Shown: positions 4,045-54,176 of the stretch, piece by piece
Numbering within the stretch: the first letter of the stretch is position 1
Layout: each line of letters begins with the position of its first letter
NCBI GenBank assembly: GCA_963921195.1
Contig: OY992537.1
Location: forward strand, 34,147,410-34,211,409
Source of the DNA: Pegoplata infirma
Lineage: Eukaryota; Arthropoda; Insecta; Diptera; Anthomyiidae
Length of the DNA: 64,000 bases
Direction of reading: 5' to 3'
Notes under the pieces: generated by a model
What the model was told of the DNA's origin: nothing
The model's input: only the letters and a program-made list of their open reading frames with translations
Database searches by the model: none
Made by a program: the position numbers and the translations under genes

Positions 4045-5935
4045 TGCTCAGATTCCGTGAATTTTTCTAAACAACAACTCTAAGAATTTTTCTAAAGAAA
4101 AAATTTGATAATTTGTCTAAAGAAAAAATCTGAGAATTTTTCTAAAGAAAAAATCTGAGAATTTTTCTAAAGAAAAAATCTGAGAATTTTTCTAAAGAAA
4201 AAATCTGAGAATTTTTCTAAAGAAAAAATCTTAGAATTTTTCTATAAAAAATATCTCAGAAAGTACAAATTTTTTAATATAAAAAAATATAAAAAAGTCT
4301 TCTGAGACATTTTTTCTTTAGAAAAAGTCGCAGACTCTACGATATTTTTTTTTTTATAAAAGCTTCTAAGGCATTTTTTCTATAGAAAAAATTTCAGATT
4401 GTGAGAAGTTTTTGCTTTGCAAAAAGTCTCAGATTCTAAGACGTTTTTCCTGTAGAAAAAAATCTTAGATTCTGAGACATTTTTTCTATAGAAAAAGTCT
4501 CTGATTCCATAGAAAAAGAATTAGATTCTGAGACATTTTTTCTATAGGAAAAAGTCTCAGATTCCGACAATTTTTTTCTAAAAAGTCTCAGTTCTGAGAC
4601 ATTTTATTTTATAGAAAAATCTCTTGATTCTGGCATATTCTTTTTATAGAAAGTCTCAAATTCTGATACACTTTTTCTATAGAAAAAGTCTCATTTCTGA
4701 GACATTGTTTTTTATGAAAAAAATCTCTAGATACTGAGAAATTTATCTATAGAAAAAGTCTCAGATTCGGACACATTTTTTCTATAGAAAAAGTGTCAGA
4801 TTCTAAGACATTTTATCTATAGAAAAAGTCACAAATTCTGAGACGTTTTTTCTAGATGAAAAGTCTCAGATTCTTAGAATTTTTTTCTAGAGAAGAAGAC
4901 TCAGATTCTGAGACATTTCTTCTATAGACAAAATCAAAAATACTGAATTTTTTTCTTACAGAAAAAGTCTCAGAATCTCAGATATTTTTCCTACATAAAA
5001 AGTCTCAGATTCTAAGACATTTCTCTTACACAAATGTATCAGATTTTTCCATTAGAAAAAGTCTTAAATTCTGAGACATTTTTGCTATAAAAAAAGTCTC
5101 AGATTCTGAGATATTTTTGCTATAAAAAAGTCTCCGATTCTGAGACATTTTCCTATAGAAAAAGTCTCATATTCTGAGACATTTTTCTCATAGAAAAAGT
5201 CTCAGATTTTGAAACATTTTTCCTATAGAAAATTCTTAGATTCCGAAGAATTTTTTCTATCGAAAAGTCTCACATTTTTCTGTAAAAAAGGTTTCAGATT
5301 CTGAGACATTTTCCTATAAAAAAAGTCTCAGATTCTGAGAAATTTTTCCTATAAAAAGTCTCAGATTCTGAGAAATTTTTCCTATAAAAACAGTCTCAGA
5401 TTGTGAGTCATTTGTCCTATAGAAAAAGTCTCAGATTCTGAGACATTTTTCTTACAGAAAAGGTCTCCGATTCTGAGATATTTTTCCTATAGAAAAAGTC
5501 TTAGATTCTGAGATAGTTTTCTTGTTAAAAAAAGTCTCAGATTCTGACACATTTTTCACATAGAAAAAGTATAACATTCTGAGACATTTTTCCAATAGAA
5601 AAATTCTCAGATTCCGAAATATTTTTCCTTTAGAAAAAGTATTAGATTCTGAGACATTTTTTCTATAGAAAAGTCTCAGATTCTCAAAAACTTTTCCTAT
5701 AGAAAAAATCTCAGATTTTGATGCATTCTTCCTACAAAAAAGGTCCCAGATTCCGAGACATTTGTGCTTTAGGAAAAGTCTTCGAATCTCAGACATTTGT
5801 ACTTTAGAAAAAGTTTAAGAATCTGAGACATTTGTCCTTTAGAAAAAGTCTCAGAATCTGTGATAATTTTCCTAAAGGAAAGTCTTAGATTCTGAATTAG
5901 ATACTGCCTTCGATTCTGAGAAAATCTTTGTGTGT
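4045..5935. repeat. 35-bp satellite array 1 (degenerate)
   Basis: About 45-50 diverged units alternate the dyad CTCAGATTCTGAG with TTTTTCCTATAGAAAAA. Spacing drifts between about 33 and 42 bp, so this is an old array. Its left end (4091-4265) is a separate 25-bp sub-array. Frames of about 100 codons here come only from the repeat being free of stops in one register. Confidence 0.85.
4091..4265. repeat. 25-bp sub-array inside array 1
   Basis: Seven units start every 25 bp (4091, 4116, 4141, 4166, 4191, 4216, 4241), each TCTAAAGAAAAAATCTGAG plus AATTTT. It keeps the TTTTTCTAnAGAAAAA palindrome but reduces the CTCAGA..TCTGAG dyad to one arm, so it is a 10-bp-shorter derivative that amplified on its own. 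Confidence 0.85.
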
Positions 5936-6390
5936 ACCTTGGTTAATTTCTATTTTCTAAAATTTATTTACCACTCTTTGGACACTTCGTACTTTTTGTA
6001 CTTCTGTTTTGTTTTTTTGTAGTTGGCTCAAAAATGTTTAATGGGGTTTGTAACATCATTATCATCTGCATTGAAACCACATCTGAAAATATATAAAACA
6101 ATTTTTTTTTTTAATTGGCCAATATTTCTGCAACAGTATTAACTTACCCTTAAAAATTTTTTTGCGTTTTTTTTCTTCAGTTTTAATTAATAATTAAAAT
6201 TTTTCGTAAATAAGTCTTAACCGTTGTTTGTTTTTTATTTTATAAAATTATTATTTTTATTTTTGTGACGTTTAATTTTTTTAATCAAAATGAAATCCCA
6301 ACAAATAATTATTTGTCAAGAGTATCAATAAAATTTCTAAATTGGTAGTAGTAGTAGAATTTTACAAAAAAAAATAAAATATATATAAAA

Positions 6391-6520
6391 TTTGGTTAAG
6401 TGGATCATTATTTTCAGTTGTGAATCAATTAATAAATATATTTAAAATTTTATTTAAGATTTGGTTAAGTTGATTATTATTTTCAGTTGTGAATACAATT
6501 ATTTAATATATTGGAAATTT
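6391..6520. repeat. Direct duplication, 69-bp period
   Basis: TTTGGTTAAGTKGATYATTA followed by TTTTCAGTTGTGAAT occurs at 6391 and again at 6460, inside the right portion of the inverted-repeat element. Confidence 0.7.
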
Positions 6521-7180
6521 ATTAATTAAAGCAACTGATTATAGGTCGAGAGAGAAAATATAGACTTAAATAAACGGTTGCATCTACTGAATATTTTTAA
6601 AAAGCGTTATAAGATTTTAATTTTTGTGTATTTACCAACTTATTAGTTGCTAATACATCAATTCGGTCACAATAAACATTTATCTAATACTGTTGTAAGT
6701 TATATGGTATGGTGATAAAACTTTTACAATAACAACTAAAAATAATTCAAATTTATCAAAATTCGGTTTTTATAATCGAATTCCAACTAAACCGTTCTCT
6801 GTGTGTTAATGTGAGCCAGATTTTTTAGAAATTTAAAATAATAAAAAAAAATTTTCTTATTTTCAAAATAAATTTTTGAAATTTTAAACACTTTTTGAAA
6901 CAAATTAATTTCAATTTGTGTTTTTGCTAATTTATGCCAAAATATGCAAAAATATGCACTTAAATATTGGAAATATGCAAAAATGTGCAAAAACAAATCG
7001 ATGCCATTTTAACGCAAATTTCTTGATTCGGAAAGATAATTGGTCGATATCGTTTTTAGGCTATCGACAAAAAACCTGAATTTGCATGGAAATCACATCC
7101 CTAATTTTTATCCAAGTTACAAATCGAAGTTTCAAACCATTTTCGTTTTAAGAAAATAAAAACAGAAATAAGAACATTTC

Positions 7181-7596
7181 CATTTTAAAAACAACTTTAT
7201 AAAAAGTTACTTGAAAATTGTTACTTTGACGATATCATCGTAATGATGAGTAAAGAAATGTGGCCTCGAGCTAGAATATTTTTTTTAAAGAGTTAATATG
7301 TCGATTTATAAAAAATGTTTCTTAATTTAAAAATTAAAACAGAATTTATATAAAGTTTAATTTTAGTTGTTTTTGCTGTATTTGTTTAAGAAGCAAATTT
7401 CGAATGCTTATAATGGTTATTGGGGTGGAAAATTAATATTGACACATTTTGGTTTTCCTACAGTTGTATTGTTGTCCTTGGTGTTTTGGTATATATAACT
7501 AAGTAAAAACCGAGGGAGACACTTAATTGTAAGATGTTTTTTAAAGATTTAATTATAAATTTTTTAAGGACAATATTTTATCAGGCTTTCAATTAT
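7181..7596. other. Spacer, no feature seen
   Basis: AT-rich sequence without a convincing frame or repeat. It lies between the X remnant and the DINE-1 copy. Confidence 0.4.
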
Positions 7597-8354
7597 TATA
7601 CCCTACATCACACTGTGGTACAGTAAAAAAAAAATGAGTTTGTGCTGATGTTTGTAACTACCCGAAATATTGGTCCTAGACCCACTTTTAAGTGTACCGA
7701 TTAACTCAGAATCACTTTTTGAGTCGATTTAGCGATGTCCGTCCGTCCGTCTGTCCACGTAAACGATACAGATCTCATTTTTTTTTTTTAAGTTTTAACG
7801 AAGCCTATTGAAATTGGAAAAAATCGGTCCATGTTTCACCTAGCCACCATTCAAATGTCATCTTTTATTTTTGCTCAAATGACTCTAATAACCGTATAAT
7901 AATAGATATCCTTTCGAAATTTGGCAGGTTTGTATTCACAAATCATCTTTTCAAATTTTAAAGGAATCAGACTAGTTCTTCTTGTAGCCCACATACAAAC
8001 CACCTTCCCGATATTTACAAAAATCTATTAAATGTCATGAAAATAAAAAATATTTAATTAAAATTTAGGCGTACTTTATGTTAAATGCGTACTTTAATAA
8101 CCCAATCAAATCTGAATATAATCGGGCCATTTTTGGACCTAGGCCCCATATAAAAATTTCATCGATATTAAGTTAAATCGGTAAAAAAAAAAACAAATAG
8201 AAGCCTATTTCACTCAAATTTGGTTTGTGAGTGTTTTTTATACATATAAAGATTTGATGAAAGATAGATCCAATCGGTTCATATTTGAACTTCGGACCCA
8301 TTTTCCGGTATTGCATGGTCGGTCTTGACCGACTATAATTTTCTTACTTGTTTT
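7597..8354 (+). mobile_element. DINE-1-type element (divergent subfamily)
   Basis: It starts TATACCCTACATCACACTGT, has CCGAAATATTGGTCCTAGACCC, then GATTTAGCGATGTCCGTCCG with a short GTCY run, and ends GACCGACTATAATTTTCTT plus ACTTGTTTT. This order (TATACCC end, GGTCCTAGACC, CGATGTCCGTC, CTTGTTTT end) matches the Helentron-related DINE-1/INE-1 elements of flies. The body differs from the other copies here. No coding capacity. Confidence 0.8.
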
Positions 8355-9044
8355 AATTTCTTGTTTAAAATTTTAAAACTACATGTCGCCATATAAATAT
8401 CAGCCTAGTATTATTGAAAGTGTTCTATTTTATATTGCCTACGCTCTACTATACATTTATTGTTTAAAATTGGATATGATAATCCTTTTTAAGATTGTAC
8501 ATTAAATCAATGCTGTACTTGAAGTTTGTGCAAGCAAAGTAGTACTGAAGCAAAAGTAGGTTAAGTTTAAGTTAATTTCATGTGAATGGGTGCATTTAAG
8601 TAATTTTGTTTTTATTTTAACTACAATCAGAATTGTTCCCAGTCTCTCTATTATGTTTAAACAAATTTATGCTTTAAAACCTGTATTTTGCTGACGTTTT
8701 TAAGGGACGTAAAATCGTAAAATATTTTAAATTAAGTGAAAACAAATGAATGTATGTGTGGAAGAAGGTGCTATAATCCAATTTTTAGAAATCGCGTTTT
8801 TTTGCCAAATCGTACCTTCTTACAATATTTCGACCTATTTGTAAACAAATTTGTTAAAAACTTGATCGTTTTCGGTCATAAAAGTGACCTTAAAAGTTAT
8901 ATTTTATTTATTTTTGAAAATATTTTATATTTTTCCCCGAATATTAATATGTATTTAGCAGTTAAACTAACGATGGTATATGAAAATTCTTACATGTGAG
9001 ATGGTGAACGTATAGAAAACATCCTAGGCTTTAACATGTGCCCA
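8355..9044. other. Spacer, no feature seen
   Basis: AT-rich. The 87-codon frame at 8736-8999 has no recognisable domain and low-complexity composition, so I do not call it a gene. Confidence 0.4.
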
Positions 9045-9417
9045 CACTCAAAATATTTTGTAGGCAAAAATAAAATGAAAAACACATTTAAAACAAGTAA
9101 TAAAACACTTGAAAACCATCCCAGTAATTATTCATTTGTTTTAACAAACATCAACATTTATTTTTTACTGTTAATAAAATTTTCTAAAATAAATAATATT
9201 GAATATTAAAATAGAACTTCACTTTCATTTTATTTACCAACAAATTCGAAAAAAATAGCCTACGAAAACATTAAAAATTAATGATTGTTGTGTTATTTTT
9301 ACAAACAATTAAAAAAAAAAAAACCCCAGGAAAACATTAAAAATTAATGATTTCTTAGGTTATTTTTACAATTTTTCTATTGAATTTTATTTTAAAAAAT
9401 TTTTAATACAATTTTTG

Positions 9418-9482: not shown

Positions 9483-9944
9483 GATGCAAACATGTTTTTA
9501 TATTTTATGACTTCTCTTTTAAAAATGCTAACAATTTAAAAAAAAAAATAACGTACACAAATCATTAAAAATTAATAAAGAATCACTTATTTTTACTTAC
9601 AGAACAAAAATAAATAACTTTAAAAATTGAATGCTAATAAAAGACTTTATTTTTTATGTTGTTATTTTTGAAACAAAGAACCGAAATAGTCATTTTAAAT
9701 AAAATAAACATTGAACAAATGTTTTAACATGATAATGTTTTTAGGCTGGTGTCTAATTTTAAAAAAGTTGCAGGACGCCACCTCAGTTTGACTATATAAG
9801 CTAACAATTAACGAAAAAGACAACAAGAATTATTATTTTCATTTTCTTAAAAAATTTTAATAACTTGGGTTGTAACTTGGATAATAATTCACCTCGTGGT
9901 GAATAAAACCGTTTTTCACCAGCTGGTTTATAAAAAGTAACATA

Positions 9945-13317: not shown

Positions 13318-14312
13318 GTTTTTTTCAACGAAAAATATCTCAGAATCTGAGATTTTTTTATACAAAAAATGTTTCAGAATCTGAGATTTTTTCTATACGA
13401 AAAATGTTTCAGAATCTGAGATTTTTTCTATACGAAAAATGTCTCAGAATCTAATACTTTTTATCTTCGAAAAATGTCTCAGAATCTGAGGCTTTTTCTG
13501 AGAGACTTTTCTTAACGAAATCTAAAACTTTTTCATTATGAAAAATGTTTCAGATTCTAAAACTTTTTCATTATGAAAAATGTCTCAGATTCTGAGACTT
13601 TTTTTTATACGAAAAATTGGTCAGATTCTGAGACTTTTTCGAAAAATGTACACTCAAAAAAATAAAACTGTAAAGTTAGCAAAAAATTTAGTTAAATTTA
13701 ACTAAAAAAACACCTGATTTTGAACCTACTAAATTTCTAGTTAATTTAACAAAAAATATTTAGTTAACTTTTCGTAGAATGAATGTAGCAAAAAAACCGT
13801 AATTTTAACTAAAAATTCAGCTGAAAATTTCGTAACATTTTTTATTAGTTGAATTCATTAAAAAATTTTAAGTTCGGTAAATATTGGTTTTAAACACTAA
13901 CACTTCATTTATTTTTATTTTTTTTTCACAGCATTAAGTTCAGCTTAAGTAGGAGTTATGAGATTTGCATAGGAGGCTGCACAAGAAATGTTTAAAATTT
14001 TTCACTTGACAAAAATGTTACAAAAAATCAGCAAATTAATTAGTAAAAATTCGTAAACTCAGTTTTACAGTCAACAAAAAAAATTAATTCAAAATTTGTA
14101 CAAAACTAGTATTTTCGTAAATTGAACTTAACTATAAAAAGTAGTTAAAACGATGATTTTAACTAAAAATTTGCTAAAAAGCCAGTAAACTCGAGTTAAC
14201 AAAAAAAAATTTGTTAACTTTACAGTTTTATTTTTTTGAGTGTATACGAAAAATGTTTTAGAATCGGAGACTTTCTCGATACGAAAAATATCTTAAAATC
14301 CACCACATTTTT
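13318..14312. repeat. 35-bp satellite array 2, split by W copy 2
   Basis: Diverged units read AAAAATGTCTCAGAATCTGAG plus ACTTTTTCTATACG, about eleven before and two or three after the W insertion. The orientation is opposite to most of array 1, with one local switch near 13540-13590. Confidence 0.8.
13651..14242. mobile_element. CACTC element W, copy 2, inside satellite
   Basis: Starts CACTCAAAAAAATAAAACTG and ends with its inverse, flanked by TA on both sides (13649-50, 14243-44). The satellite continues directly on each side (AAAAATG before, TACGAAAAATG after), which fixes both junctions. It is inverted relative to copy 1. Confidence 0.85.
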
Positions 14313-14864: not shown

Positions 14865-15539
14865 TGGTATAACGATTATTACTATTTTTTAAAATTTTTT
14901 GAAAAATTTTGTTTGTAATTTTCAATCCTAAAATCATTTCTTCTGCTCCAATGGTGCGTCATAAAGGGGTCATTTATTAGACCGACCGCCATTAATTTTT
15001 ACGTCTTAACATTTCTCTGGAACAAACTAATACCCTATCTCCAATTTCTAAGGGGGCTCCCACACAAAACGACATTTTTTAAAATTAGCTCCAACCGCTC
15101 TAACTGCCCTAATAGTGCCCTTAGAGCAACAAAATGTATGACCGACCCACAATATTTTTTTAGTCCAAACATTTTCTCTGAATACACCCTCTATGTCCAA
15201 TTGATAAGGCGGTCACCCATACAATTTTTTTTACTTTTTGTAAATTTGTTTTATTTAATCAGCATCTACACTGCGAATCACATTAATAAGGAATCGAGTT
15301 TTTCACTTTTTAATCGAATATATCTATGTAACGAATAAGCGGAAAAATATAAAAAAATGCACTGATAGAGACCATTATCTAGCTAATAACGTCAAATAAT
15401 AACAATAATCAAAAGACTGAAAGAAGTCCTTTAAAAAAATATTTTTCGGCAACTTGTTTAAAAATTGCTAGTTTTTTATGAATCACTTGAATAAGGAATT
15501 TTTTAATACAGACCAAGTAGGACCTGAATCCAATTTGTT

Positions 15540-16590: not shown

Positions 16591-16990
16591 CAAAACTGTT
16601 TTGTTTTTGTTGTTTGAGGGATTGCTATTCATAACAAATTGGATTCCGGCCCTACTTGGTCTGTATTACAAAATTCCTTATTCAAGTGATTCATAAAAAA
16701 CTGGTAATTTTTTAACAAGTTGCCGAAAAATATTTTTTAAGGGACTTCTTTCAGTCTTTTGATTATTGTTATTATTTGATATTATTAGCTAGATAATGGC
16801 CTCTATCAGTGCATTTTTTGATATTTTTCCGCATATTCGTTACAAAGATATATTCGATTAAAAAGTGAAAAACTCGATTCCTTATTGATGTGATTCGCAG
16901 TGTACCAATCCAATGGTGAGTTCGAGAGGGGTCATTAGTGAGACCGACCTCCATTTATTTTTACCCTACAACATTTTTTTTTCAAACATA

Positions 16991-19900
16991 CCCAGCAAAA
17001 TTTTATGGAATCGTTTCTTTGGCAATGTATTCTGGAATAGATTCCTCAGTAATGTTACTCCATTCCTCTACTGTTTCCACGGAATCAATAAAAAACTTGT
17101 AATTTTTGAAAAAAATGTCAAACAGAAAAATAAAATTAAAAAAAAAACAATTTATTCCCAGCAAAAAATTAACGAAAAGGTTCAAAAAGAATTAGTGGTT
17201 TCACTACATACAAAGTAGTGATAGGTGCCGAACTTCATATTCCGTAGGAAGTACTTTTAAAATCACTTCCAAAAATGCTACAAAATAACAATAAAAACAT
17301 CTTTCACCAGTTCTTTGCTTAATGATTTTGAAGTACCTTTTTCATATGTTCTTAGGAATCAAATCAAATCACCACAACATATGAACTTTGTTTTTCAACT
17401 GAAACAATTAGAATGAGGGTGATACACGAAGTATGAAATTTTTTCCAGCTTCAAATAGATTTAGGTTTTGCAAAAATGGTGACAAAATTTGGTAATGGCA
17501 TTTCATTTCTCTTTATTTAGAGCTTAAAAAATCGAAAAGACGAAAATCGATTATTGATAAATTTTTCAAATTTCATATCTTATATCAAAAAAAGTTGTTC
17601 CTAAATTAAATAAATACATTTACGAACTAAAGCGGATGTTGCTGCATCACATTATTAAAGATTGTTTAAGCTTTTTAGAAAATTGAGGTATAGGCTTGTG
17701 GTCAAAACAAACTTGTGAATCAATTCGCCGTGAATTTTTATAGTTTTGTGATCTCTATAATTACTCCTTTTTTAATTCGAAGTATATACGTTAGATTATC
17801 AATGAAATTAATTTTTCTATCACGTAAGGTTTTTAAGATATTCGCGTTTTAATATTGAAATATTTGGGTCTCCTCTGTAACGTATTTTTAAGTTGCTCAA
17901 ACACAATAGAACTCGATTTAGTAAAAATAAGGCATCTTTATTCCAAATCTGGCATCCAAATTTTTCTATCGCGTATTGTTTTTGAAATATTGGCGTTTGA
18001 AAAACTCAAACTCCACTGTTACGAACATGCTTGAAAATTGTGGATTGCAGTTTTGGAATCAGGAGGTCCATTTTATATGAAATCAGGTCCTATTTCGTGG
18101 AAACAACGTAAGAATACGTAACAGTGGACCCCTAAAAGTGCTTTTTTTACTTTTTAACAGCGAATATCTCAAAAAAGGTACGTGCTAGAAAAATTGGGAC
18201 GGTAGATTTAAAAACAGGAGACTAAAATCTATAAGGACCAGTTAGAAATTTCACTGGAAGGTTTTTGCTGTCGAACAGTGTTTTTAGTGTAAATATTACA
18301 AAAAATACTCTTTCAATCAATCTTACAAAAATAAGTAAAAAAAGAACTTCTAATTTAGAAGTTCTAAATCACCAAATAAAAATGCCATAATCACACCCAA
18401 AATGCCAAGAAATATGTACTTCTAAAGAAGTGATGAAAAAAGTGCTTCCAAAAGGTCAAGTTATATTAACATCCGGATCACTACTTCAGAAGTTGTGATA
18501 AAAACACTAGTGATATATGTTATACTTAAGTGTCAATCTTTCGCCACTAAAAAGTGGCGATAAAAAGAACATACTTTGTGTGTCACGCCCATATTAAATT
18601 CATCAATGTTTCAGTTGAAGAAGAAGTACATCTGGTTCATAAGTTGTGGTGAATTTTGTAGTGAATGGTAAGCTCTTTTTTTGCTGGGTTTGTTATCTTT
18701 TTGTGGACAAAATTTTTGATTTTCGCCGCACTAATTGTGCTTTTAAATACATTCTGGATACATATGGCAGAAATAACGTAAGTACACATCTTAATTTGGT
18801 ATATGTATGTGGTACTTACAATTTGTTTTATGGTTTCTTTCAGATTGCAAAAAATACATATTTTAAGATGTAATTTAGGAGAACTGATGCTGTCGGTTAT
18901 ACTCATGGAAATATTAAGAAGCATATTCTATCCATTTTCTCAAAACTAGAAGCGTGGGATATAATATTCATTGTAAAGGAATTATCAAGGTTGTAGCATG
19001 TATGTATCCACAGTTTAACATAATTTTTGATAGGTATAAAAAATTTTAAATATCTCAGAACCTGAGAGACATTTTCTATAGGAAAAATGTCTCGGAATCT
19101 GAGACTTTTTCTATAAGAAAAATGTCTCAGAATCTGAGACTTTTTCTATAGGAAAAATGTCTCAGAATCTGAGACTTTTTCTATAGGAAAAATGTCTCAG
19201 AATCTGAGACTTTTTCTATAGGAAAAATGTCTCAGAATCTGAGACTTTTTCTATAGGAAAAATGTCTCAGAATCTGAGACTTTTTCTATAGGAAAAATGT
19301 CTCAGAATCTGAGACTTTTTCTATAGGAAAAATGTCTCAGAATCTGAGACTTTTTCTATAGGAAAAATGTCTCAGAATCTGAGACTTTTTCTATAGGAAA
19401 AATGTCTCAGAATCTGAGACTTTTTCTATAGGAAAAATGTCTCAGAATCTGAGACTTTTTCTATAGGAAAAATGTCTCTGAATCTGAGACTTTTTCTATA
19501 GGAAAAATGTCTCAGAATCTGAGACTTTTTCTATAGGAAAAATGTCTCAGAATCTGAGACTTTTTCTATAGGAAAAATGTCTCAGAATCTGAGACTTTTT
19601 CTATGGGAAAAATGTCTCAGAATCAGAGACTTTTTTTATAGGAAAAATGTCTCAGAATCTGAGACTTTTTCTCAAGTAAAAATGTCTTAGAATCTTAGAC
19701 GTTCTTCCTGTACAAAAAGTCTTAGAATCTGAGACATTTTTTAGAAAAAGTCTCAGATTCTGAGACATTTTTCCTATAGAAAAAGTCTCAGATTCTGAGA
19801 AATTTTTCCTATAGAAAAAGTATTAGATTCTGAGAAATTTTTCCTATAGAAAAAGTCTCAGATTCTGGAACATTTTTCTTATAGAAAAAGTCTCAGATTC

Positions 19901-20184
19901 TGAGTCTATAGATTTTTTCTTAATAAGATTATTATCATCATTACATGGAACAGATATGTAACCGTTAAAAAATCGCGGAATCCCTTCTTGTACCACTATA
20001 TGCAACATATTCTAGAATAGATTCCGAAGAACAGATAAGTGTTCTAGTTTGGAGGAAAAGGATGTATTGCTTTCGTGACAATCTCAAACAAAAATCATCG
20101 ATGATGCAATGCATAGTAGAATCGATTGCAGGGTAGTATAGTTGATTCCACAACCGATTCTTTAGAATCGAACATTTTGCTGGG
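16991..20184. mobile_element. CCCAGCAAAA inverted-repeat element carrying satellite array 3
   Basis: Ends CCCAGCAAAATTTTATGGAA and inverse of CCCAGCAAAATGTTCGATTC, with TA duplicated (16989-90, 20185-86). The opposite J arm (20295-20335) reads ACATACTTACGCC without the insert. The 3.2 kb interior has no transposase frame. It contains repeated TTTTTCTATCRCGTA blocks near 17815 and 17960 with an inverted relative near 18170, TACTTCT/AGAAGT dyads near 17240 and 18410-18500, and the 35-bp array at its right end. Confidence 0.8.
19040..19915. repeat. 35-bp satellite array 3, homogeneous then inverted
   Basis: From 19089 to about 19718 eighteen units repeat at exactly 35 bp (unit GTCTCAGAATCTGAGAC plus TTTTTCTATAGGAAAAAT). 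Most are identical, with one or two substitutions in the last ones. After a disordered junction at 19690-19740 the remaining units to 19915 are the reverse complement (CTCAGATTCTGAG then ACATTTTTCCTATAGAAAAAG). Homogeneity points to recent expansion. Confidence 0.95.
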
Positions 20185-20806
20185 TACCTACGCCTTATCT
20201 CCACTCTCTAACAATAAGTAGGCTCCCATACAAATAAGAGTTGGAGCAAATTTTTTAAAAATGTAATTTTGAATGGAAGCCTACTTAGGGAGTGGAGCTA
20301 GGGCGTAAGTATGTTCTAAAAAAATGTTATAGGGTAAAAATAAATGGGGGTCGGTCTCACTAATGACCCCTTTCGGACGCACCATTGAACCGGTAGAAGC
20401 TGATTAAATAAAACAAATTTACAAAAAATAAAAAAAAAATGGATGGGTGGGTACCGCTTTAACAGTTAAAGATAGAGGGTAGGTGTGTTCAGAGAAAATG
20501 TTTGGACTAAAAAAATATTGTGGGTCGGTCATACATTATGTTGCTCTAAGGGCACTATTAGGACAGTTAGAGCGGTTGGAGCAAATTTTAAAAAATGTCG
20601 TTTTGTGTGGGAGTCCCCTTAGAAATTGGAGATATGGTATTAGTTTGTTCCAAAGAAATGTTAAGACGTAAAAATTAATGGGGGTCTGTCCAATAAATGA
20701 CCCCTCTACGACGCACCATTGGAGCAGTAGAAATGATTTTAAGATTGGAAAATTACAATAAAATTTTTTCAAAAAATTTTAAAAAATAGTAATAATAGTT
20801 ATCCCA

Positions 20807-22039: not shown

Positions 22040-22678
22040 TGCCTATAAAATATATTCTGTTCATCATTCTTCAATTAGTAATTTAGATATTATTTTACAA
22101 AATTAAAATGCAGCTTTTGTTACTGCAGCATTTATGTCACATGAACTTTTCTGTAGTGTTATATTTGGACAGGAATTCCCCATATTCAGGAAATTTTTGG
22201 AATATCTCACTTCCATACATAGTGGTATTGCAGCATTACTGTACCCACAAATATCTCTATTTCATGCATATTTGCATAGCAACTTGTGCGATATTTGTAT
22301 GCTGTAAAAATAAACTTATGCATCTGTTAATGACAATACGAATTTATTTAACTTGCACATTTTTGTGGAGGTGAGATGGTTTTTTTTTTAGTTTTTTATT
22401 ATATTGCAAATAAAACTATTGCGGATGCGAAACTTTTTTTGGTATAAAAAGTAAAAATAAGTTTAATATTAAATTGATAGTGGAATTTTTGAAATTAATT
22501 TAAATATTAAATTTAGCTGACATAAATTATATTTAAACAAATTAAGAGCAAATAAAAAAGCAACATTTTTAATGTCTCCGTATTCGCTTAATTTGAATAC
22601 CAAATTAAAATTTTAGTATATGAACATTTTTAAATTCTGAGACATATTCGTGAAGAAATCTTTTCAGATTCTGAGACA
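22040..22678. other. Spacer with short satellite remnant
   Basis: Includes one possible exon-like frame (listed separately) and, at 22631-22680, about one and a half diverged 35-bp satellite units that X copy 2 interrupts. Confidence 0.5.
22108..22374 (+). other. Exon-like 88-codon frame, unrecognised
   Basis: This frame is less T-run driven than others and encodes a Leu/Cys/His-rich peptide with hydrophobic stretches (start MQLLLLQHLCHMNFSVVL, end RIYLTCTFLWR). A CAG precedes it (22108-22113 region, AATGCAG) and AGGTGAGAT at 22369-22377 would be a good splice donor. I recognise no domain and see no neighbouring exon. It may be chance. Confidence 0.15.
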
Positions 22679-22749
22679 TTTTAACATGATAATGTTTTTA
22701 GGCTGGTGTCTATTATTAAAAAAGTTGCAGGACGCCACCTCAGTTTGAC

Positions 22750-23960: not shown

Positions 23961-23962
23961 TA

Positions 23963-30474: not shown

Positions 30475-31168
30475 AACAAGTAAGAGTGTTAAATTCGGCT
30501 GTGCCGAATCTTTTATACCCTCCAACACGTTAAAAAAAAAATCACAGGGGTGTCTTTTTTTTTTTGGTGGGGGGGGGGTCAGTGAAGTTGGTGAGGGACA
30601 CCTGTACCCCCGCTATATATGTTTAAAAATTATTTGTTTATGATAATTTACGCTTAAATAATAACTTTTTATCGTTATTTTTAATGAATTTCTATAACCA
30701 CGCCCCCTAAGGGGGGCGGCCTGAAAAAAATCGAATTTACTAACCGCCTTGGTCCAAGCGCAGGTCTATGAACATAATATGGCATACAAATGTTACATTT
30801 GTTGGACAAAAATTAAAAAAAACACGTAAAAATATCGTATTTTTCAGGGGTCGTTTTAGTTCTTCAAGGGGGAACTTTTTTTCCCCTTGTCCGAATTTGC
30901 CCATCTTCGAACTTAACCTTACCAGTAACATAAGAGATATTCTTGCACAATTTCAGGCGTCTAGCTCTTTTGGTTTGGACTGCATCGTTATTTCTACAGA
31001 CGGACGGACGGACGGACGGACGGACGGACGGACATCGCTAGAATGTCTTAGATTCTATCATGGATCAATATTATGTATACTTTGTGGGGTCCCCGACCGA
31101 TATTTCGATGTGTTACACACGGAATGACAAAGTGAGTATACCCCCATACTGTGGTTGGAGGGTATAAA
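30475..31168 (-). mobile_element. DINE-1-type element, different subfamily, nested
   Basis: In reverse it begins TATACCCTCCAACCACAGTA, has GGTCGGGGACCCCACAAAG, a (GTCC)8-9 run at 30999-31034, and ends with GTGCCGAATCTTTTATACC-type text and CTTGTTTT. This subfamily is closest to the DINE-1 segment inside X. The host DINE-1 resumes at both sides. Confidence 0.8.
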
Positions 31169-33944: not shown

Positions 33945-35300
33945 ATGTACACTACTTATACTTTAGTATAACTAATATAATTTTGGTATAACTAGTAAAT
34001 ACTTAAATATAATGTTCACGAGGAACATAGGGCGTTAACAAACTCTCTCCAACTATTTCTATCTCTTGCAAGTAACTTGATTTGATTCCATGTTGTTTGA
34101 GCTGATTCGAGTTCTTTTCTTGTGCAACGTGTCCATGTGTTACGAGGTCGCTCTGGTCGGCGTTGACCTTGGGGGTTCTAATCAAGGGCTTCTCTAGCTA
34201 TATCGTTCTGTGGTCTTCTGAGGATATGACCGATCCATGTCCGTTTACGTCTTCGTATATTGAATTCGATTGGACAACAACCAGCCTGCTGCCAAAGATC
34301 TTCATTGGATATCCAATTTGGCCAGAAAATATTTAATATTTGCTTTAAACATCGATTTACAAATGTCTGGATCTTCTTTAGGGTGAGTTGCGTGTAGCTC
34401 CATGTAGTACATCCGTAAAGCAAAACTGATTTTACGCTGCAGTTAAATATCCGCAATTTGGTTTTTTTTGAGATGTTTCTAGCACGCCAAACTTTATAAA
34501 GCTTATGGAAGGCGGTACGTGCTTTATTAATACGGTCGTAAATATCAGCTTCCGATCCACCATCTTTGGTTATTTTACACCCAAGATAGTTGAAGGTTTC
34601 TACATCTTCGATCACAGTGTCATTTACTATTAATGGCGTTGTTATATGAGTACCAATGCGCATAAGTTTCGTCTTCTTGAAATTTATTCTCAATCCAACT
34701 TTTTAAGCGTTTTCGGAGAGTCTCTTTATTTTTTCTTCAATATCCGCGAAGCGATGAGCCATTAAACATATGTCATCCGCATAGTCTATATCGTTTAAAA
34801 ACTCGGACATGTTCCATCGTATGCCCACAGGGGCCTGCCTGTTGGTTTCCTCCATTACACAGTCCAGGAGTAAAAGAAACAATGTGGGGGATAGGACACA
34901 ACCTTGCCTTACACCAGTAGCAGTAGAAAAAGGCTGACTATCCTTCCCATTAAAACGCACTTTACATGACGCATCTCTGTAAAGCTCGCTTATTAGGGTG
35001 ACAATTTTTTCTGGAATGCCTTTGTTTATTAGAGCAGACCACATAGATGTTCGAGATATTGTGTCGAAAGCACGTTCAAAATCTACAAAAAGCAAGTAAA
35101 GATGTGTGTTGTATTCTGCCGATTGTTCTATTACTATCCGAAGAGTGTTTACGTGATCTACACACGATCTTCCAGGCCTAAAACCAGATTGTTCTCTTCT
35201 TAAAATTTGTTCAACTGCTGGCGAAATACGTTGCAATATTAAAGTGGCCATTACCTTACGAATCGCATTTAAGACAGTAATGCCACGCCAGTTTCTGCAA
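33945..35300 (-). mobile_element. 5'-truncated LINE (non-LTR retrotransposon)
   Basis: It holds the reverse transcriptase C-terminal two thirds and the downstream domain of a non-LTR element, then an AT-rich tail at its 3' side (33945-34015). The 5' boundary near 35300 is abrupt, which is usual for incomplete target-primed reverse transcription. I did not find a clear target duplication. Confidence 0.8.
34016..35300 (-). pseudogene. LINE reverse transcriptase, 5'-truncated, two stops
   Basis: One reading frame runs from about 35300 to a TGA at 34016-18. It starts at NWRGITVLN and shows the family motifs in order: QSGFRPGRSCVDHVNTLR, motif A FVDFERAFDT, motif B GVRQGCVLSPTLF, catalytic YADD in DIDYADDICLM, then KTKLMRIG, FNYLGCKIT, LLYGCTTW and the C-terminal RRRKRTWIGHILRR, NPQGQRRP, RPRNTW. 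Two in-frame stops interrupt it: TAA at 34703-05 after SENA, and TAG at 34178-80 where a Trp before NPQG is usual. The N-terminal endonuclease is missing. The catalytic Asp pair is intact. Clade is not assigned; RTE- or CR1-like groups are candidates. Confidence 0.9.
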
Positions 35301-42791: not shown

Positions 42792-44641
42792 ACAAGTAGA
42801 AAAGTTAAAGTCGTTAGGCCGAATCTATGAATACCCTCCACAATGCTCTTTTTAAAGGATAGTAAATTTTTTAATGTGAAAAATAACAATTTTGATTAGA
42901 AATATTTTATTTTGAGTAAAAAACTTTTTTTTTTCATTTTTGTAAAAAAAAATAGTTTACTAATTTTTTTCTTTGAGTGTAAAATTTTATCCGAGTGTAA
43001 ATTTTTTTTAGTGTAAAAATATTTCTAAGGGACAAAAGTACTCTGAAAAGTAATTTTGTGGCTTCTCATTGTTTTTAAAGCTTGTTTTTTTTCAACACGT
43101 GAGTTATAGGTGAAACCAATCTGAAATTCAGGGTTTTGCTTATAACTTTAGAACCACTGGACCGATTTATTTGAAATTTAACACGAACCGTTCGAAAGTT
43201 ACCGTATCTTTTATCTCGTAAATTCGCGAAAAACCCTTGCCGAAATTTACTCTTTTGCTTAAACCTTTTGAACCACTGGACCGATTTCGCTGGATTGCAA
43301 TACCAACCTGGCCAGGTAAATGACCAACATATACGTCAAACTTCAGGAGCCTCCGTAAAGTCTTTCAAAAGTCAGCGTGTTTTCAACAGACAGACGGACA
43401 GACAGACGGACAGACGGACGGATGGACGGGCAGACGGACGGACGGACGGACATCGCTAGATCGTCTTAAAACGATCGAGGATCACGAATATATATACTTT
43501 ATGGGGTCCTAGAGCAATATTTCGAGGTGTTACAAACGGAATGACAAACTCATATATGAGGCATTCCACACCAAATGTCCAGCGAAAAAAAAGCATTGGT
43601 GCCGTAAACTTCTAAATAGGTTGTATGGATAGCCCTATATGGAACTTAGAAAATAGCGTTTTTGGTCTTTCAATTTTTCAAAAACTGGACTTAGGAGGCG
43701 TGGTCAAATATTGGAAAAATGGTGAAATTTGTGCCGATTTGCCTTGATTAAATATTTATCATATTAAATCGGAATGCACCATAATCTCAAAAATTTGCAT
43801 TCTCATATAGTTTTGTATGGGCAATCGATTAATTTTTTTTTTTGGAAAATTTTCAGAACCCGTTCTGAAATTTTCCATTTTTTAAAAAAGTCAATTTAAC
43901 AAAAATCCGCCCACTTTTTTTTTGTAAGTTTAGATGTTTGTCCATCCACACAAAAAAATTCAGAAACACGTTCTTCGTTTTCTTTAAAAAAATCGCATTT
44001 GAATTTTAAATTTCATAACAATTATGTAATTTGCTTGTATTTTCATGTTTCAATAGAGCGTAATATTTATGCAATTAATAACACTCATTCGCAACGTTAA
44101 AATAAAAAAATACAAACAAATTACAATATTGTTATGAAATTTAAAATTCAAATGCAATTTTCTCGAGAAAAACGAAAAACGCGTTTCAGAATTTTTTTGT
44201 GTGGATGGACAAACATCTAAACTTTAAAAAAAAGTTAAAAAAAAAAAAAAATGGCCGGATTTTTGATAAATTGACTATTTGAAAAAATGGAAAATTTCAG
44301 AACGGGTTCTGAAAATTTTCCAAAAAAAAAATTTAATCGATATCCCATACATAACTATATAACAATGTAAAGTTTTGAGATTGTGGTGCATTCCGCTTTA
44401 ATGTGATAAATATTTAATCAAAGCAACTCCCCACAAATTTGACCATTTTTCCTATATTTGACCACGCCTCCTAAGCTCAGTTTATGAAAATTTGAAAAAG
44501 TAAAAACGCAATTTTCTTAGTTCCATATAGAGATATCTAAACAACCGATTCAGAAATTTACGGGACACATGTTTTTCTGTAACGGGACATTTGGTGTGGA
44601 ATGCCTCATATACCCTCTTACACTAGAGTGCGGGGTATAAA
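42792..44641 (-). mobile_element. DINE-1-type element, head-to-tail with previous
   Basis: Its CTTGTTaT-side terminus at 42792 directly follows the TATAAC-type terminus of the previous copy, both in minus orientation. It contains a long interrupted GGAC/CAGA run at 43387-43450. A 1052-bp palindromic MITE splits its terminal TATATACCCTC at TA. Confidence 0.85.
43557..44608. mobile_element. 1.05 kb palindromic MITE, copy 1
   Basis: TGAGGCATTCCACACCAAAT with GTCC at the left is inverted exactly at the right, with TA on both sides (43555-56, 44609-10). DINE-1 copies without it read CTTATATATACCCTC, so one TA was added. Arms are alignable to the centre near 44080 (GGCGTGGTCAAATATTGG; TCAGAACCCGTTCTGAAATT; TGTTTGTCCATCCACACAAA; GCATTTGAATTTTAAATTTC). 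Confidence 0.95.
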
Positions 44642-46697: not shown

Positions 46698-46699
46698 TA

Positions 46700-48157: not shown

Positions 48158-49019
48158 TATACCCTTCACTCTAGTGATAGAGGGTATATATAAGTTTGTC
48201 ATTCCGTTTGTAACACCTCGAAATATTGGTCTAGGACCCAATAAAGTATATATATTCATGATCCTCGATCGATTTTAAGACGATTTAGCGATGTCCGTCC
48301 GTCCGTCCGTCCGTCCGTCCGTCCGTCCGTCCGTCCGTCCGTCCGTCCGTCTGTCTATCTGTCTGTTGAAAACACGCTAACTTTTGAAAGACTTTATGGA
48401 GGCTAGTGAAGTTTGGCATATATGTTGGACATTTACCTGGTGAAATCGGTCCTGTCTTTCAAAAGGTATGAGCAAAATATTGACTTTCGGCAAGGGTTTT
48501 TTGTGAATTTATGAAATAAAAAACACGCCAACTTTCAAAAGACCATTTTGATGATACTGAAGCTTGGCATATATGTTTTTCGTTCCCCTGGCCTAGTTCG
48601 TATTGAATTTCAGCCAAAGCGGTCTAATGGTTCAAAAGTTATTAGCAAAACCGTGAATTTCAGATTAGTTTCACCTTAAATTCACGTGTTGAAAACCCGT
48701 GAAACATGTTTTAAAAACATTAGTAAGTCACAACAATATTTTACAACGTATTTTTGGCACTCAAAAATTTTTTTAAACTAAAAAAAAAAAAAAATACACT
48801 CAAAAAAATTTTACACTAAAAAAAAAAATTTGCACTCAAAAAAATTTTGTAAATTATTATTTTTTTCAAAAATTATTAAAAAAAAGGTTGTTTTGCACAA
48901 TATGAAATATTTTTAATCAAAAATTTTATTTTTTTCACGTTAGAAAATTTACTTAAAAAGGGCATTGTGGAGGGTATTCATAGATTCGGCCAAGTTGAAT
49001 TTAACTTTTCTACTTGTTT
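48158..49019 (+). mobile_element. DINE-1-type element in satellite
   Basis: TATACCCTTCACTCTAGTGA start, GGTCTAGGACCCAATAAAGT, GATTTAGCGATGTCCGTCCG with an expanded (GTCC) run of about 14 units at 48293-48364, TACACTCAAAAAAATTTTAC-type repeats at 48793-48845, then GTGGAGGGTATTCATAGATT and CTACTTGTTT end. Satellite sequence flanks both sides. Confidence 0.9.
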
Positions 49020-50204
49020 AACTTCAAATCTGAGAAATTTTCTATATGAAAAATATTTAAGAATCTGAGTATTTTTCTATATGAAAAATGTCTCAGAATC
49101 TGAGAAATATTTCTGAGGCATTTTTTCTATATAAAAAATGTCTCATTTTTCTATACGCAAAATGTATCAGAATCTTTGAAATTTTTCTATTCGAATGTCT
49201 ATGAGTTTGAGAATTTTTCTATAAGAAAAATGTCTAAAAATCTAAAAAATATTTCTCTACAAAAAATGTTTTAAAATCTGAGAAGTTTTTCTATACCAAA
49301 ACCTCTGAGAATTTTCTAGACGACAAATATCTTATAGTATTAGAATTTTTATTTTTCTAAGAATTTTCCAACACGAAATATGTCTTAGAATATGAAAATT
49401 TTTCACACCGAAAATTTCTCAGAATCAGTGAATTTTTTAATACGAAATATATGTCAGAATATGAGAGCATATTTATACGAAAATATCTCAGATTCTTCTA
49501 TATAAAGAATGTCTTTCAATCACAGGATCTTAACAAAAAATATCTCAGAATCTGAGAACTTTTTATATGAAAAATGTCACTGAAGCAGAAAATTTTTATT
49601 TACGAAACATGTTTCAGAATCTGTGAGTTTTTTTTAGCGAATCTGAGAATTTTTCATTCGAAAAATTATAAAGAATTTGAAAACTGTCTCAGAATTTGAG
49701 AACTTTTCTATTGGAAATTTTCTGAGAATTTTTCTATACCAAAAAAAGTCTCAAAATCTAATGTCTAAGAATCAGTGAATTTTTTATAAGAAAAAATGTC
49801 TTAGAATCTAAGAAATTTTTTATACGAAAAATGACTCAGAATCTGAAAATTTTTATATACGAAAAATCTCTCTGAATCTGAATTTTTTTTTTATATAAAA
49901 AATATCTCAGAATCTAAGAAATTTTTTACACGAAAACTGTCTCAGAATCTGAGAATTTTTCTATACTAAAAATGTCTTAGAATCTGAGAATTTCTCTATA
50001 CGAAAAAATTTCGCAGAATCTGAGAGTTTTTCTATACGAAAAATGTCTCAGAACTTAAGACTTTTTCTATTAGAAAATATTCCAGAATCTGAGACTTATT
50101 CTATTGGAAAAATGTTTCTAAATCTGAAACTTTTTCTATAGGAAAAATCTTCTAGAATCTGAGACTTTTTCTATAGAAAAGATTTCTCAGAGTCTGAGAT
50201 TTTT

Positions 50205-51363
50205 TTTAACATGATAATGTTTTTAGGCTGGTGTCTAATTTTAAAAAAGTTGCAGGACGCCACCTCAGTTTGACTATATAAGATAACAATTAACGAAAAA
50301 GAAAACAAGAATTACTATTTCCATTTTCTTTAAACCAAAAATTTTGAGTTTGTAACTTGGATAATACTTAACCTCGTGGACCACGAGTCGTGGTGAATAA
50401 ACCCGTTTTTCTCCAGCTGGTGATTAAAAAGTTATCTAATAATTTTTCAACAAAAAAAGTTTTTTTTTTTCAACAAAAAACATTTTTTTTCATCAATTTT
50501 TTTTTTGATCAAATTTTTTTATTCATCAATTTTTTTTTGTTCATCAAATTTTTTTCATCAAATATCTTTTTTTATAATTTTTTTTTTCATCAATTTTTTT
50601 TTATTTTCATCACTTTTTTTTATTAAATTTTTCATATTTTTTTTTTCATCAATTTTTTTGTTTTTTCATCAAATTTTTTTTTTTTCAATAAATTTTTTTT
50701 TTTCATAAAATTTTTTTTCATAATTTTTTTTTAATTTTTTTCATAAATTTTGTGTTCATAAATTTTTTTTCATCAATTTTTTTTTCATAAATTTTTTTTC
50801 ATAAATTTGTCTTCATCAAAAAATTTTGCTTTTCATCAAAAAAATTTTTTGGTTAGTAAATTTTTTTTTTTTATAAAAAATTTTATTTTTTCATCAAAAA
50901 TTTTTTTTTCACCAAAAATGTTGTTTTCATCAAATTTTTTTTTTGTCAAAATTTTGTTTTTTGTGAAAAAAAAAATATTTTTTTTTTTCAAAAACTAGTA
51001 AAAACTACTTTTCCACCAAGTCTAAGCTTTTTACATAAAATTTTCCATTGGTTTATCAAATGTACATAATACAAGTGAGAGTGTTAAATTCTTCGGTGCC
51101 GAATCTTTTATACTCTCTAAAATGTAAAAACACTTTTTTGCACTTATTTTTGCAATCATTTACCAAATGTACAGCTCTTTTGGTTTTTTAATGGGGTCCT
51201 CGACTGATATTTCAATTCGTTTTGCATGGAATAGCAAAGTAATATAACATTATTTTTTCTAAAAAAAAAAAACTTTGCTTTGGCAAGTACACCCAAATCT
51301 TCCGCAAAACATTATCATGATTTAATGTTTTGGGCAAGAGCACAAAATTTGCAGGCATATTTT
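50205..51363 (+). mobile_element. X element copy 4 (short, uninterrupted)
   Basis: TTTAACATGATAATGTTTTT start inside a satellite unit, TTTGACTATATAAGATAACA (one copy of the 11-bp site), T-rich block 50440-51000, GTGCCGAATCTTTTATACTC, GCAGGCATATTTT end. It is the best reference for X because nothing is nested inside. Confidence 0.8.
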
Positions 51364-51423
51364 ATACGAGTCTGAGAAAAGTTTCTCCGAACCTGAGAAT
51401 TTTTCAATATAAAAAATGTCTTA

Positions 51424-54176
51424 CACTCTAATTAATTTTCATGTAAATTTACCCTGTTTATAGTAGGTAACTTGTCTCCTACTATAAACCGTGTAAAAAT
51501 ACTTGTTGTGCTTAAAGTGATAGACACAAAGTATGTAAACGTACATATTCATGTGTCTACAAAATGCTTCGCAACAAAAATGTTTCAGGAAAATTTACAC
51601 GTTTTGTGTGTAAATAAACATGTTTATTTAGTAAACTTAAAGTAGAAATGCCTGGAAATACATGAAAATTATGTACATATACATTGAAATTGGTTTTTAT
51701 AAAACCACCCTAACCTTTCCAAATTCAAATTTTAAAAAAACAATAAATGCATTTTTATATATTTTATTTAAAATAAAAAAGGCTAATGAAGGCTTAAAAC
51801 AAACGTGTTAAAATTAAATAAAAAAAGCTAAAACAAATAAAAAAAATAATTAAAAATGTAACCAAAAACATTTCTTTCTATAGAAAAATTCTCAGATTCT
51901 GAGACATTTTTTACAGAAAAATTCTTGTACAGAAAAATTTTCAGATTCTGAGACATTATTTCTATAGAAAAACTTTCAGATACTGGGATATTTTTTCCAT
52001 AGAAAAATTCTCAGATTCTGAGACATTTTTTCTATAGAAAACAGATTCTGAGACATTTTTTCTATAGAAAAATTCTCAGATTCTGAGACATTTTTTCTAT
52101 AGAATCTGAGACATTTTTTCTATAGAATCGGAGACATTTTTTCTATAGAAAAAGTCTCAGATTCTGAAACATTTTTTCTATAGAAAAATTCTCAGATTCT
52201 GAGACATTTTTTCTATAGAAAAATTCTCAGATTCTGAGACATTTTTTCTATAGAAAAATTCTCAGATTCTGAGACAATTTTTCTATAGAAAAATTCTCAG
52301 ATTCTAAGACATTTTTTCTATAGAAAAATTCTCAGATTCTGAGACATTTTTCTAAAGAAAAATTCTCAGATTCTGAGACATTTTTTCTATAGAAAAATTC
52401 TCAGATTCTGAGACATTTTTTCTATAGAAAATTTCTTAGATTCAGAGACATTTTTTCTATAGAAAAATTCTCAGATTCAGAAACATTTTTTCTATAGAAA
52501 AATTCTCAGATTCTGAGACATTTTTTCTATAGAAAAATTCGAAGATTCTGAGACATTTTTTCTATAGAAAAATTCTCAGATTATGACATTTTTTCTATAG
52601 AAAAATTCTCAGATTCTGAGAAATTTTTTCTATAGAAAAATTCTTAGATTCTGAGAAATTTTTTCTATAGAAAAATTCTCAGATTCTGAGACATTTGTTC
52701 TATAGAAAAATTCTCAGATTCTGACATTTTTTCTATAGAAAAATTCTCAGATTTTGAGACATTTTTTTCTATAGAAAAATTTTCAGTTTCTGAGACATTT
52801 TTTTCTGTAGAAAAATTTTCAGTTCCTGAGACATTTTTTCTATAGAAAAATTTTCAGTTCCTGAGACATGTTTTTTTATAGAAAAATTGTCAGATTCTGA
52901 GACATTTTTTCTATAGAAAAATTCTTAGATTCTGAGACATTTTCTCTATAGAAAAATTCTCAGATTCTGGACATTTCCTCTATAGAAAAATTCTCGGATT
53001 CTGAGACATTTTCTCTATAGAAAAATTCTCAGATTCTGAAAGATTTTTTCTACGGAAAAATAAAAAAATGTAGAGTAATTTTCTATAGAAACAATATTCT
53101 GAGACATTTTTGATAGAAAAAAATATCTATTGAAATATGCTCTATAGAAAAAATGACTCGGAATTTGGGAACTTTTCTTTAAAAAAATATATCTCAGAAT
53201 CTGAGAATTTTGCTACAGAAAAAATGTCACAGAATCTTAGAATTTTGCTTTAGAAAAAATGTCTCAGAGTCTTAGAATTTTTCTACAGCAAAAATGTCTC
53301 AGAATCTGAGAATTAAACTTTTCTATAAAAAATATCTAGAATCTGAGATTTTTTTACCAATCTGTATTTTACAAGAATTTTTTTTTTTTTCAAATTGTTG
53401 GTTTATCAAAATTAATTTCTGTTCTGTTGTGCTTAAGAACATGCTGCAACCTACCCAAACGACCCATTCCCCATATCACAAAATATTGAAATTCTTGAAG
53501 TTGAATACTTCCACCGGACATTGTTTGGCCTATTGGTTCTAATGTTTACCCAAATTTTGATGCAAATTGTGGCTCTATATTTTGAATGCGTTTCGCTCTA
53601 TGATTTCCAATCAATTTCAAACCAAAAGGACCTTAAGAAATAAAAAAAAAGAAATAGAAAATTAAAATGCGAGTTTTAAGATTAAACATTTGAATCTAAT
53701 AGGGCCAGCACACGTGAAGAAGAATCTTCATAGAAACCAAAATTCCCTCATGTGCGAAACTATCAAAATGAATTCATTTACTTACAAAGAGAAGCAGAGA
53801 TTATGGTATTAGATTCCTCAGTTGCAAGCTGTGTTGCTCGTATTTGATTTTTTGTTTGTCTAATTTTCCAAATTGTTTTTTAAAAATGAAGTTTTGACAA
53901 TTTCCACAATACTTTGTTAAATTATGTACGATTACATATTTTGTGTCTGAAACAGAATTAACATGGAAAAAATGTATATTTAAAGTGAAAGTGTTTATAA
54001 TCTTATAAACATGTTTCACAACACACACTGTACTATACTTTGTGTTTAATTCCTTACAAATAAATGTGTAACTATTTTGTTCAAACACTACGTGTTTAAA
54101 TTTGCGTATTTTCTGTAAATATACATGAAAATTTACTAATTTAATAATAGTAAAGTTACATGCATTTTTTAGAGTG
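51424..54176. mobile_element. CACTCTAA inverted-repeat element carrying array 5
   Basis: CACTCTAATTAATTTTCATG at the left; the right end inverted reads CACTCTAAAAAATGCATG, with ACATGAAAATTTAC further in. TA flanks both sides (51422-23, 54177-78) and satellite array 4 continues beyond. The subterminal parts share AAACATG/TTTACACGT-type blocks. The middle 1.5 kb is a 35-bp array of a different variant from the array it interrupts. No transposase. Confidence 0.65.
51870..53355. repeat. 35-bp satellite array 5
   Basis: About 33 units AAAAATTCTCAGATTCTGAG plus ACATTTTTTCTATAG, mostly at 35 bp with occasional 20-30 bp truncated units near 52030-52130. After about 53060 the orientation flips to AAAAATGTCTCAGAATCTGAG-type for six units. 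Intermediate homogeneity between arrays 3 and 1. Confidence 0.9.

Follow-up and report, generated by a model that had tools for sequence, protein, structure and literature searches.

A 35-bp minisatellite shared as inherited cargo by at least four unrelated families of non-autonomous transposons in Pegoplata infirma

Introduction

Miniature inverted-repeat transposable elements (MITEs) that carry satellite repeats are already known. In Xenopus tropicalis, the Tc1/mariner-type MITE miDNA4 (Scalvenzi & Pollet 2014) contains an internal satellite with a variable number of units; it has been proposed that the element captured a repeat that existed before and that short direct repeats provided microhomology (PMC12628747, PMC9659126). 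Tandem repeats have likewise been described in other small elements, namely, Xstir in the Xmix MITEs of Xenopus, (GTCY)n in lepidopteran MITEs, and HindIII and BIV160 in Pearl-type elements of bivalves (PMC9659126). Tetris and TIR-220 of Drosophila virilis contain repeats inside long foldback terminal inverted repeats (TIRs), and the repeats of Tetris also form longer arrays (PMC4079207); for Galileo, slippage or template switching in gap repair has been proposed to account for the structure of the copies (PMC4168063). The central tandem repeats of the DINE/Helentron elements of Drosophila have been linked to satellite arrays (PMC9659126). Here we describe a 35-bp minisatellite in the genome of the fly Pegoplata infirma, analyzed through a stretch of 64,000 nucleotides of contig OY992537.1 (C2:34147410-34211409; hereafter, the window) and through copies elsewhere in the genome. 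This single satellite is the inherited cargo of at least four unrelated TIR families, which we denote E1, E3, E5 and E6.

Results

One satellite in four unrelated element families

The genome is AT-rich and comprises 1.384 Gb in 813 contigs, denoted C1, C2 and so on. Arrays in the window were located with Tandem Repeats Finder (TRF) together with a scan for the 17-mer GTCTCAGANTCTGAGAC. When as many as 4 substitutions are allowed, the window contains 136 matches to this 17-mer, whereas five order-2 Markov sequences average 1.8; genome-wide, there are 268,076 exact matches compared to 3 for the reversed control. Wrap-around scoring of satellite coverage was abandoned and its figures discarded because the local score rises in AT-rich DNA, so that whole loci are called satellite.

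The original prediction, made from the window alone, placed arrays 1, 3 and 5 in three unrelated elements, two of them flanked by TA. Both statements are borne out: the ends of E1, E3 and E5 recur genome-wide, with E6 now added as the fourth family, and TA lies on both sides of E3 and E5 in the window, where E1 is flanked by TT. Between the families, the arms share only short matches of at most 39 bp (the arms of E6 that were compared measured just 231 and 107 bp). Comparison of left against right sequences detected no long TIRs in E1, E3 or E5, in which the array is central. With introns disregarded, the window copies of these three elements contain no open reading frame of 110 or more amino acids outside the satellite and one inside it. 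Inverted ends accompanied by target duplications recur in 7 of 7 copies of E5, 8 of 9 of E1 and 3 of 3 of E6. Genome-wide, candidates, which are first-look matches and not verified elements, numbered 721 for the left arm and 662 for the right arm of E1, 1594 for the right arm of E3, 332 for the left arm of E5, and 1433 and 1916 for the two ends of E6.

Forty left arms of E5, scored across nine contigs, are 96-100% identical over the arm, and both ends were found in six of the 8 copies fetched, with bodies of ~1.25-2.70 kb. TA lies on either side of all 7 two-ended copies (these six and the one in the window), the left flanks of 17 of 20 further copies end in TA, and the array is carried by 9 of 9 copies. 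In the window, the site into which E5 inserted was an older array of this 35-bp satellite. The possibility that E5 homes to satellite targets was considered and is not convincing: among 27 left flanks, 2 clearly consist of satellite and a third (L061) may do so, which, without the window copy, leaves 1 to 2 of 26, compared to ~2.2% satellite (4334 of 200,000 bases) in a systematic sample of C1.

In E1, the array is present after the left arm in all 8 copies read, four of which form a group of 85-87% identity, and the arrays are collinear between copies (83% over 3.26 kb). The left and right 2-bp flanks, compared by eye, match each other in 8 of 9 copies (TA in 4, CA in 2, TG in 1 and TT in 1), the ninth having AT/TA; with TA on both sides in just 4 of the 9, E1 does not show the strict TA target duplication of Tc1/mariner elements. 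For E3, the 40 scored copies of the right arm are 98-100% identical, and the array and its junction are alike in 3 of 3 copies (the window copy and 2 fetched ones); both flanks were examined in the window copy alone, where they are TA.

The surroundings of E3 show additional structure. Inverted arms lie outside the window copy, at 14865-15269 and 20393-20806 (91% identity) and at 16903-16980 and 20318-20395 (90%), so that a larger inverted-repeat element appears to enclose E3. In L078 (C1:146343550-146345100), the end of one E3 abuts the start of the next (GCTGGG|CCCAGC) without TA, and two E3 right arms lie 2.6 kb apart at C1:128003428 and 128006039, hinting at head-to-tail tandems of E3.

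The fourth family, E6, is a hAT-like host that was found through sampled arrays that had seemed free. An unbiased sample of 20 systematic 10-kb pieces of C1 yielded 8 array loci, that is, 7 arrays of at least 2 units and a two-unit remnant in L024, with the two middle clusters of L014 counted as one interrupted array. The array of L026 and that of L001, a locus obtained through the genome-wide 17-mer search and not through the sample, have CAGTGGCGTATACAGG... at one boundary and CAGGGGCGTATCCAGG... at the opposite one, and are flanked by identical 8-bp sequences, TTTTGTAG and GCGTGTGT, respectively; a 1-kb relative in L024 has CATTGGTG on both sides, so that 8-bp duplications, the length typical of the hAT superfamily, were identified by eye in 3 of 3 copies tested. 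The ends CAGTGGCGTATACAGG and CAGGGGCGTATCCAGG fit CAG.GGCG, which we take to be the beginning of the short hAT TIR, and the ends of the L024 relative, CATGGACG and CAACGACG, depart from this motif. The array of L002-L008 has an E6-type end on one side only. Altogether, two of the 8 sampled loci lie in two-ended E6-type elements and one (L014) lies beside a single E6-type end. Two pairs of candidate ends are 2029 and 2408 bp apart. Satellite was found 400-480 bp from the E6 end in 4 of 6 interior pieces (scores of 66-114, with a background maximum of 46 among 360 pieces), the other two still consisting of arm, and the arrays of E6 are collinear between copies (78.6% over 1186 bp).

Thus, the array occupies a family-constant place in the copies read of E1, E3, E5 and E6. 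Because arrays are collinear within a family, the array travels with the element and is passed on by transposition. Among the copies read, E1, E3 and E5 had no satellite-free representative, which implies that the array is part of each of these elements rather than a late insertion. The recurrence of element ends, array junctions and target duplications at many unlinked sites supports the proposal that transposons carry the satellite with them as it spreads.

Unit number and possible exchange of arms

Unit number varies widely between near-identical copies. Six E5 bodies contain 4, 10, 10, 12, 25 and 41 matched units, and L036 contains at least 91. The left 450 bp of E5 are 97.6-99.3% identical in pairwise comparisons of nine copies, a side on which similarity is biased upward by the selection of copies through their left arms. 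Right ends were available for seven copies, which fall into three types over their final 450 bp. Type 1 comprises the window copy, L029, L030 and L031, which are 94-99% identical among themselves; type 2 comprises L034 and L035, which share 98% identity and are 84-88% identical to type 1; and type 3, represented by L032, is 82-86% identical to all others. Given that the left arms are alike and the right arms are of three types, the sequences to the left and right of the array differ in history, which suggests exchange through the array. In the short copy L034 (C644), the array joins the right arm internally, at the few shared bases TTCTAT, as a microhomology deletion would produce.

Subtypes of the unit

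The consensus sequences of the arrays, derived from unanchored alignment, correspond to GTCTCAGATTCTGAGACATTTTT-NN-TATAGAAAAA and vary solely at unit positions 1 (G or T), 24 and 25, with the exception of the short array L018 (14 units), which differs also at position 13; for the window E1 array, alignments anchored on the 17-mer and unanchored alignments disagree at position 24. Exact 35-mers were counted genome-wide for four subtypes, with reversed controls of 0. The CTTATAG and CCTATAG subtypes, with 71,565 and 32,586 copies, respectively, have an imperfect palindrome as the second half; the E1 subtype (CTATAG, with G at position 1) has 20,185 copies; and the E5 subtype (T at position 1), in which the first half is imperfect at the edge, has 16,053. 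The original description of the unit as GTCTCAGANTCTGAGAC followed by TTTTTCTATAGAAAAA, with both halves self-complementary, therefore holds for the E1 subtype, which accounts for 20,185 of the 140,389 units counted, and fails for the other three. Subtypes can be neighbors: E5-type and CCTATAG units are intermixed at C1:7547074-7549674, and CTTATAG units adjoin CCTATAG units at C1:5043628-5044397.

Features of the window

The satellite arrays, their hosts and the associated repeats are listed in Table 1. A long inverted repeat that appeared to enclose array 2 was rejected as a host because its arms represent a single type of MITE present twice, with one copy inside the array.

Table 1. Satellite arrays, carrier elements and associated repeats in the window
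Feature	Position	Strand	Ends, flanks and remarks
Element E1 (3176 bp)	3630..6805	+	ends CACACAGAAAAC.../...CTCTGTGTG; TT on both sides
Array 1 (35-bp satellite, in E1)	4045..5925	+	located by TRF and 17-mer scan
25-bp-period variant, left edge of array 1	4059-4261		
Array 2	13321..13640	-	resumes at ~14243 after the MITE; no host element found
MITE within array 2	13651..14242	+	begins CACTCAAAAAAATAAAACTG...; TA duplication; not a satellite host
Element E3	16991..20184	+	ends CCCAGCAAAA.../...TTTTGCTGGG; TA on both sides
Second element, nested in E3	17157..18688	+	ends CCCAGCAAAA / TTTTTGCTGGG by eye; TT at each flank; does not belong to the satellite system
Array 3 (in E3)	19052..19907	-	first ~19 units on - strand, last ~5 on + strand
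Two-unit satellite remnant	22611..22683	-	abuts a TTAA-flanked repeat
Array 4	49020..50208	-	bordered by an abundant repeat that ends at 49019 and a different one that begins at ~50209; no host element found
Left remnant of the older array holding E5	51360..51423	-	
Element E5 (2753 bp)	51424..54176	+	ends CACTCTAA.../...TTAGAGTG; TA duplication
Array 5 (in E5)	51885..53355	+	+ units to ~53061, - units from ~53142
Right remnant of the older array holding E5	54177..54600	-	

The window also contains an abundant repeat that begins TTAA|CATGATAATGTTTTTAGGCTGG, at 9727, 22684, 26564, 45110, 50209 and 57688, and that is present in L012, L020, L024 and L026 as well. Most copies are flanked by TTTTAA, as would be produced by an element with a TTAA target. 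Within ~250 bases, the copies at 9727, 26564 and 50209 lead into an array of a 14-17-bp unit (TTTTTTTTCATCAA), which is perhaps a second element-borne minisatellite. An open frame of 310 amino acids at 62772-63704 matches DDE_Tnp_1_7 (PF13843, E 1.7e-60) and represents a piggyBac-type transposase. On the minus strand, two adjacent open frames at 34178-35251 match reverse transcriptase (PF00078) and DUF6451. Arrays of GACG/GTCC tetranucleotides, located at 30999-31033, 43389-43451, 48293-48355 and 58292-58341, resemble the (GTCY)n microsatellites described for lepidopteran MITEs (PMC9659126).

Discussion

Probable hitch-hiking in transposons

We consider it probable that the 35-bp minisatellite is hitch-hiking cargo of non-autonomous cut-and-paste transposons. 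Under this scenario, each family would have acquired its array once. Repair of an excision gap through template switching, or through microhomology joining into another array, could both capture an array and re-pair arms, and the AT-rich, dyad-rich repeat would ease such switches; slippage during the same repair might lengthen or shorten the array. Old arrays would outlive the decayed ends of their elements, giving rise to free satellite that might seed the next family. A bolder version of this scenario presents the unit as a parasite of transposons, one that moves between families by gap repair, re-pairs arms and is renewed from intact units, such that its sequence stays fixed while the carriers diverge; we regard this extension as speculative and more probably wrong than right by a considerable degree.

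Several observations weigh against the hitch-hiking scenario. Five of the 8 array loci in the unbiased sample lie in no definable element, and one such element-less array runs at least 2.37 kb, which raises the possibility that some of the satellite spreads or grows independently of carriers. The original prediction named two outcomes as evidence against itself, and the results for these are mixed: on a preponderance of arrays outside inverted-repeat elements, five of the 8 sampled loci were not shown to be in an element, and on the recurrence of the element boundaries in copies without satellite, no satellite-free copy of E1, E3 or E5 was seen among those read. The CTTATAG places listed (~100) span the first 13 Mb of C1, which amounts to ~8/Mb compared to 52 genome-wide, and the CCTATAG places listed span 14.8 Mb of C1, or ~7/Mb compared to 23.5; the scarcity of both subtypes in the first 13-15 Mb of C1 implies that there are denser regions elsewhere. 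The known right arm of E1 was not reached in 3 of 8 copies: in L083 and L084, the array runs into other sequence, and in L080, there is no E1 right arm within the piece examined. Three of the 20 further left flanks of E5 do not end in TA, and the contrast between the left and right sides of this element could partly reflect conversion of the left arms. No array capture event was seen in the analysis, and no transposase was linked to any family, although autonomous partners were not searched for.

Alternative explanations

The arrays outside recognized elements and the uneven density along C1 are what would be expected if the satellite came first, that is, if an independent satellite multiplied by unequal exchange and via extrachromosomal circles, and inserted widely, with the elements as passive targets. 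Units of the E5 type are close to their mean, at ~13/Mb over 7.5 Mb of C1 compared to 11.6 genome-wide. Exact units of the E1 subtype extend over 6.4 kb, from C1:7427918 past 7434320, in three ~2-kb blocks of alternating orientation, which, as far as the positions of exact units tell, are either one long array, as is usual for classical satellite DNA in heterochromatin, or neighboring carriers. An array was present in 1 of 20 one-kb pieces taken from 20 contigs (C6 onward). Also in favor of this view, C10 has a homogeneous array whereas three other places on this contig are not satellite, and for the latter reason a large satellite block on C10 was rejected. The single place of the array in each family and the collinearity of the arrays in the copies read speak instead for copying together with the element rather than insertion anew, and an independent origin followed by passive insertion appears unlikely. 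Alternatively, the satellite could have been born inside one element, perhaps the hAT-like E6, and could have reached the others by nested insertion or inter-element recombination. E6 is a large family with arrays collinear between copies, and decay of the 17-bp core, at 17-19%, is among the highest for two of its arrays; however, array 4, which has no known host, is more decayed (21%), and a third E6-ended array is little decayed (5%). We view a birth within E6 or another single element as doubtful.

The last alternative makes the array a functional module: dyad units would serve as binding sites, either for a transposase or for a protein of the host, and would increase transposition, and unrelated families would have been selected to keep the repeat. 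Presence of the same unit in four unrelated families is compatible with this idea, and the pattern of decay, assessed on 318 units of eight older arrays with the variable positions 1, 24 and 25 set aside, can be read both ways. Sites with G or C have changed in ~12-30% of the units and A/T sites mostly in 5-13%, with 15-17% at positions 27-28; near the center of the 17-mer, G7 and C11 change less (15% and 12%, respectively) than other G/C sites (24-30%), which may favor this idea, but G/C otherwise decays faster than A/T, as AT-biased neutral decay would have it. Only 3 of the 318 older units are intact when the 32 fixed positions are considered. By contrast, among the runs of identical neighbors in five arrays of greater homogeneity, 13 of 14 consist of exactly the common unit, so that recent expansions nearly always repeat the ancestral sequence. 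This could mean that expansion favors intact units, that young arrays refill old elements, or that decay never affected these arrays. Maintenance of the dyad by compensatory change was rejected because mirror positions show no excess of paired change: in the 17-mer, 90 double changes at mirror positions were seen compared to 88.2 expected (310 distinct units), and in the other half, 56 compared to 47.3, all position pairs averaging 1.13 times the expectation. Moreover, one dyad is broken in the subtypes that are the most common genome-wide, and the number of units ranges from 4 to at least 91. These features, along with the changes of orientation inside arrays, lend no support to the suggestion in the original prediction that the arrays are internal transposase-binding repeats, and the occurrence of the unit in both hAT-like and 2-bp-duplication families, for which different transposases are expected, also argues against such a role. 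On sequence grounds, a binding function of the unit is unlikely, and selection for a functional module across families seems to us quite improbable.

Implications and comparison with known systems

In this genome, the spread of a satellite can be read copy by copy, from the carrier element, the junction, the target duplication and the unit subtype. If arms are indeed exchanged through the array, satellites would be more than passengers and would help make new combinations of transposons. The derivation of satellites from transposons and the acquisition of satellites by transposons would then become testable against each other in one genome.

A literature search in one open library yielded, among the papers listed, no report of one satellite in several unrelated elements, and the 17-mer GTCTCAGANTCTGAGAC was not found in the paper texts of that library. 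Helitrons and Helentrons are not known to have TIRs or target duplications. The DINE/Helentron elements are of the Helitron type, whereas the carriers described here have TIRs and target duplications and thus differ from Helitrons in both features. As described in the sources cited above, the repeats of Tetris and Galileo lie within long foldback TIRs, in contrast to the short TIRs and the single central array block of the elements analyzed here. Xstir, (GTCY)n, HindIII and BIV160 are likewise tandem repeats in small non-autonomous DNA elements but, in the accounts cited, each of these repeats is associated with one element type. Similarly, miDNA4, as presented in the cited accounts, combines one MITE with one satellite, whereas the 35-bp repeat of P. 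infirma occurs in no fewer than four unrelated families, including the hAT-like E6, and is accompanied by reshuffled right arms in E5. This well-supported case belongs with the systems above and is unusual in the breadth of its carriers; a satellite that is common to several unrelated TIR families appears to be new.

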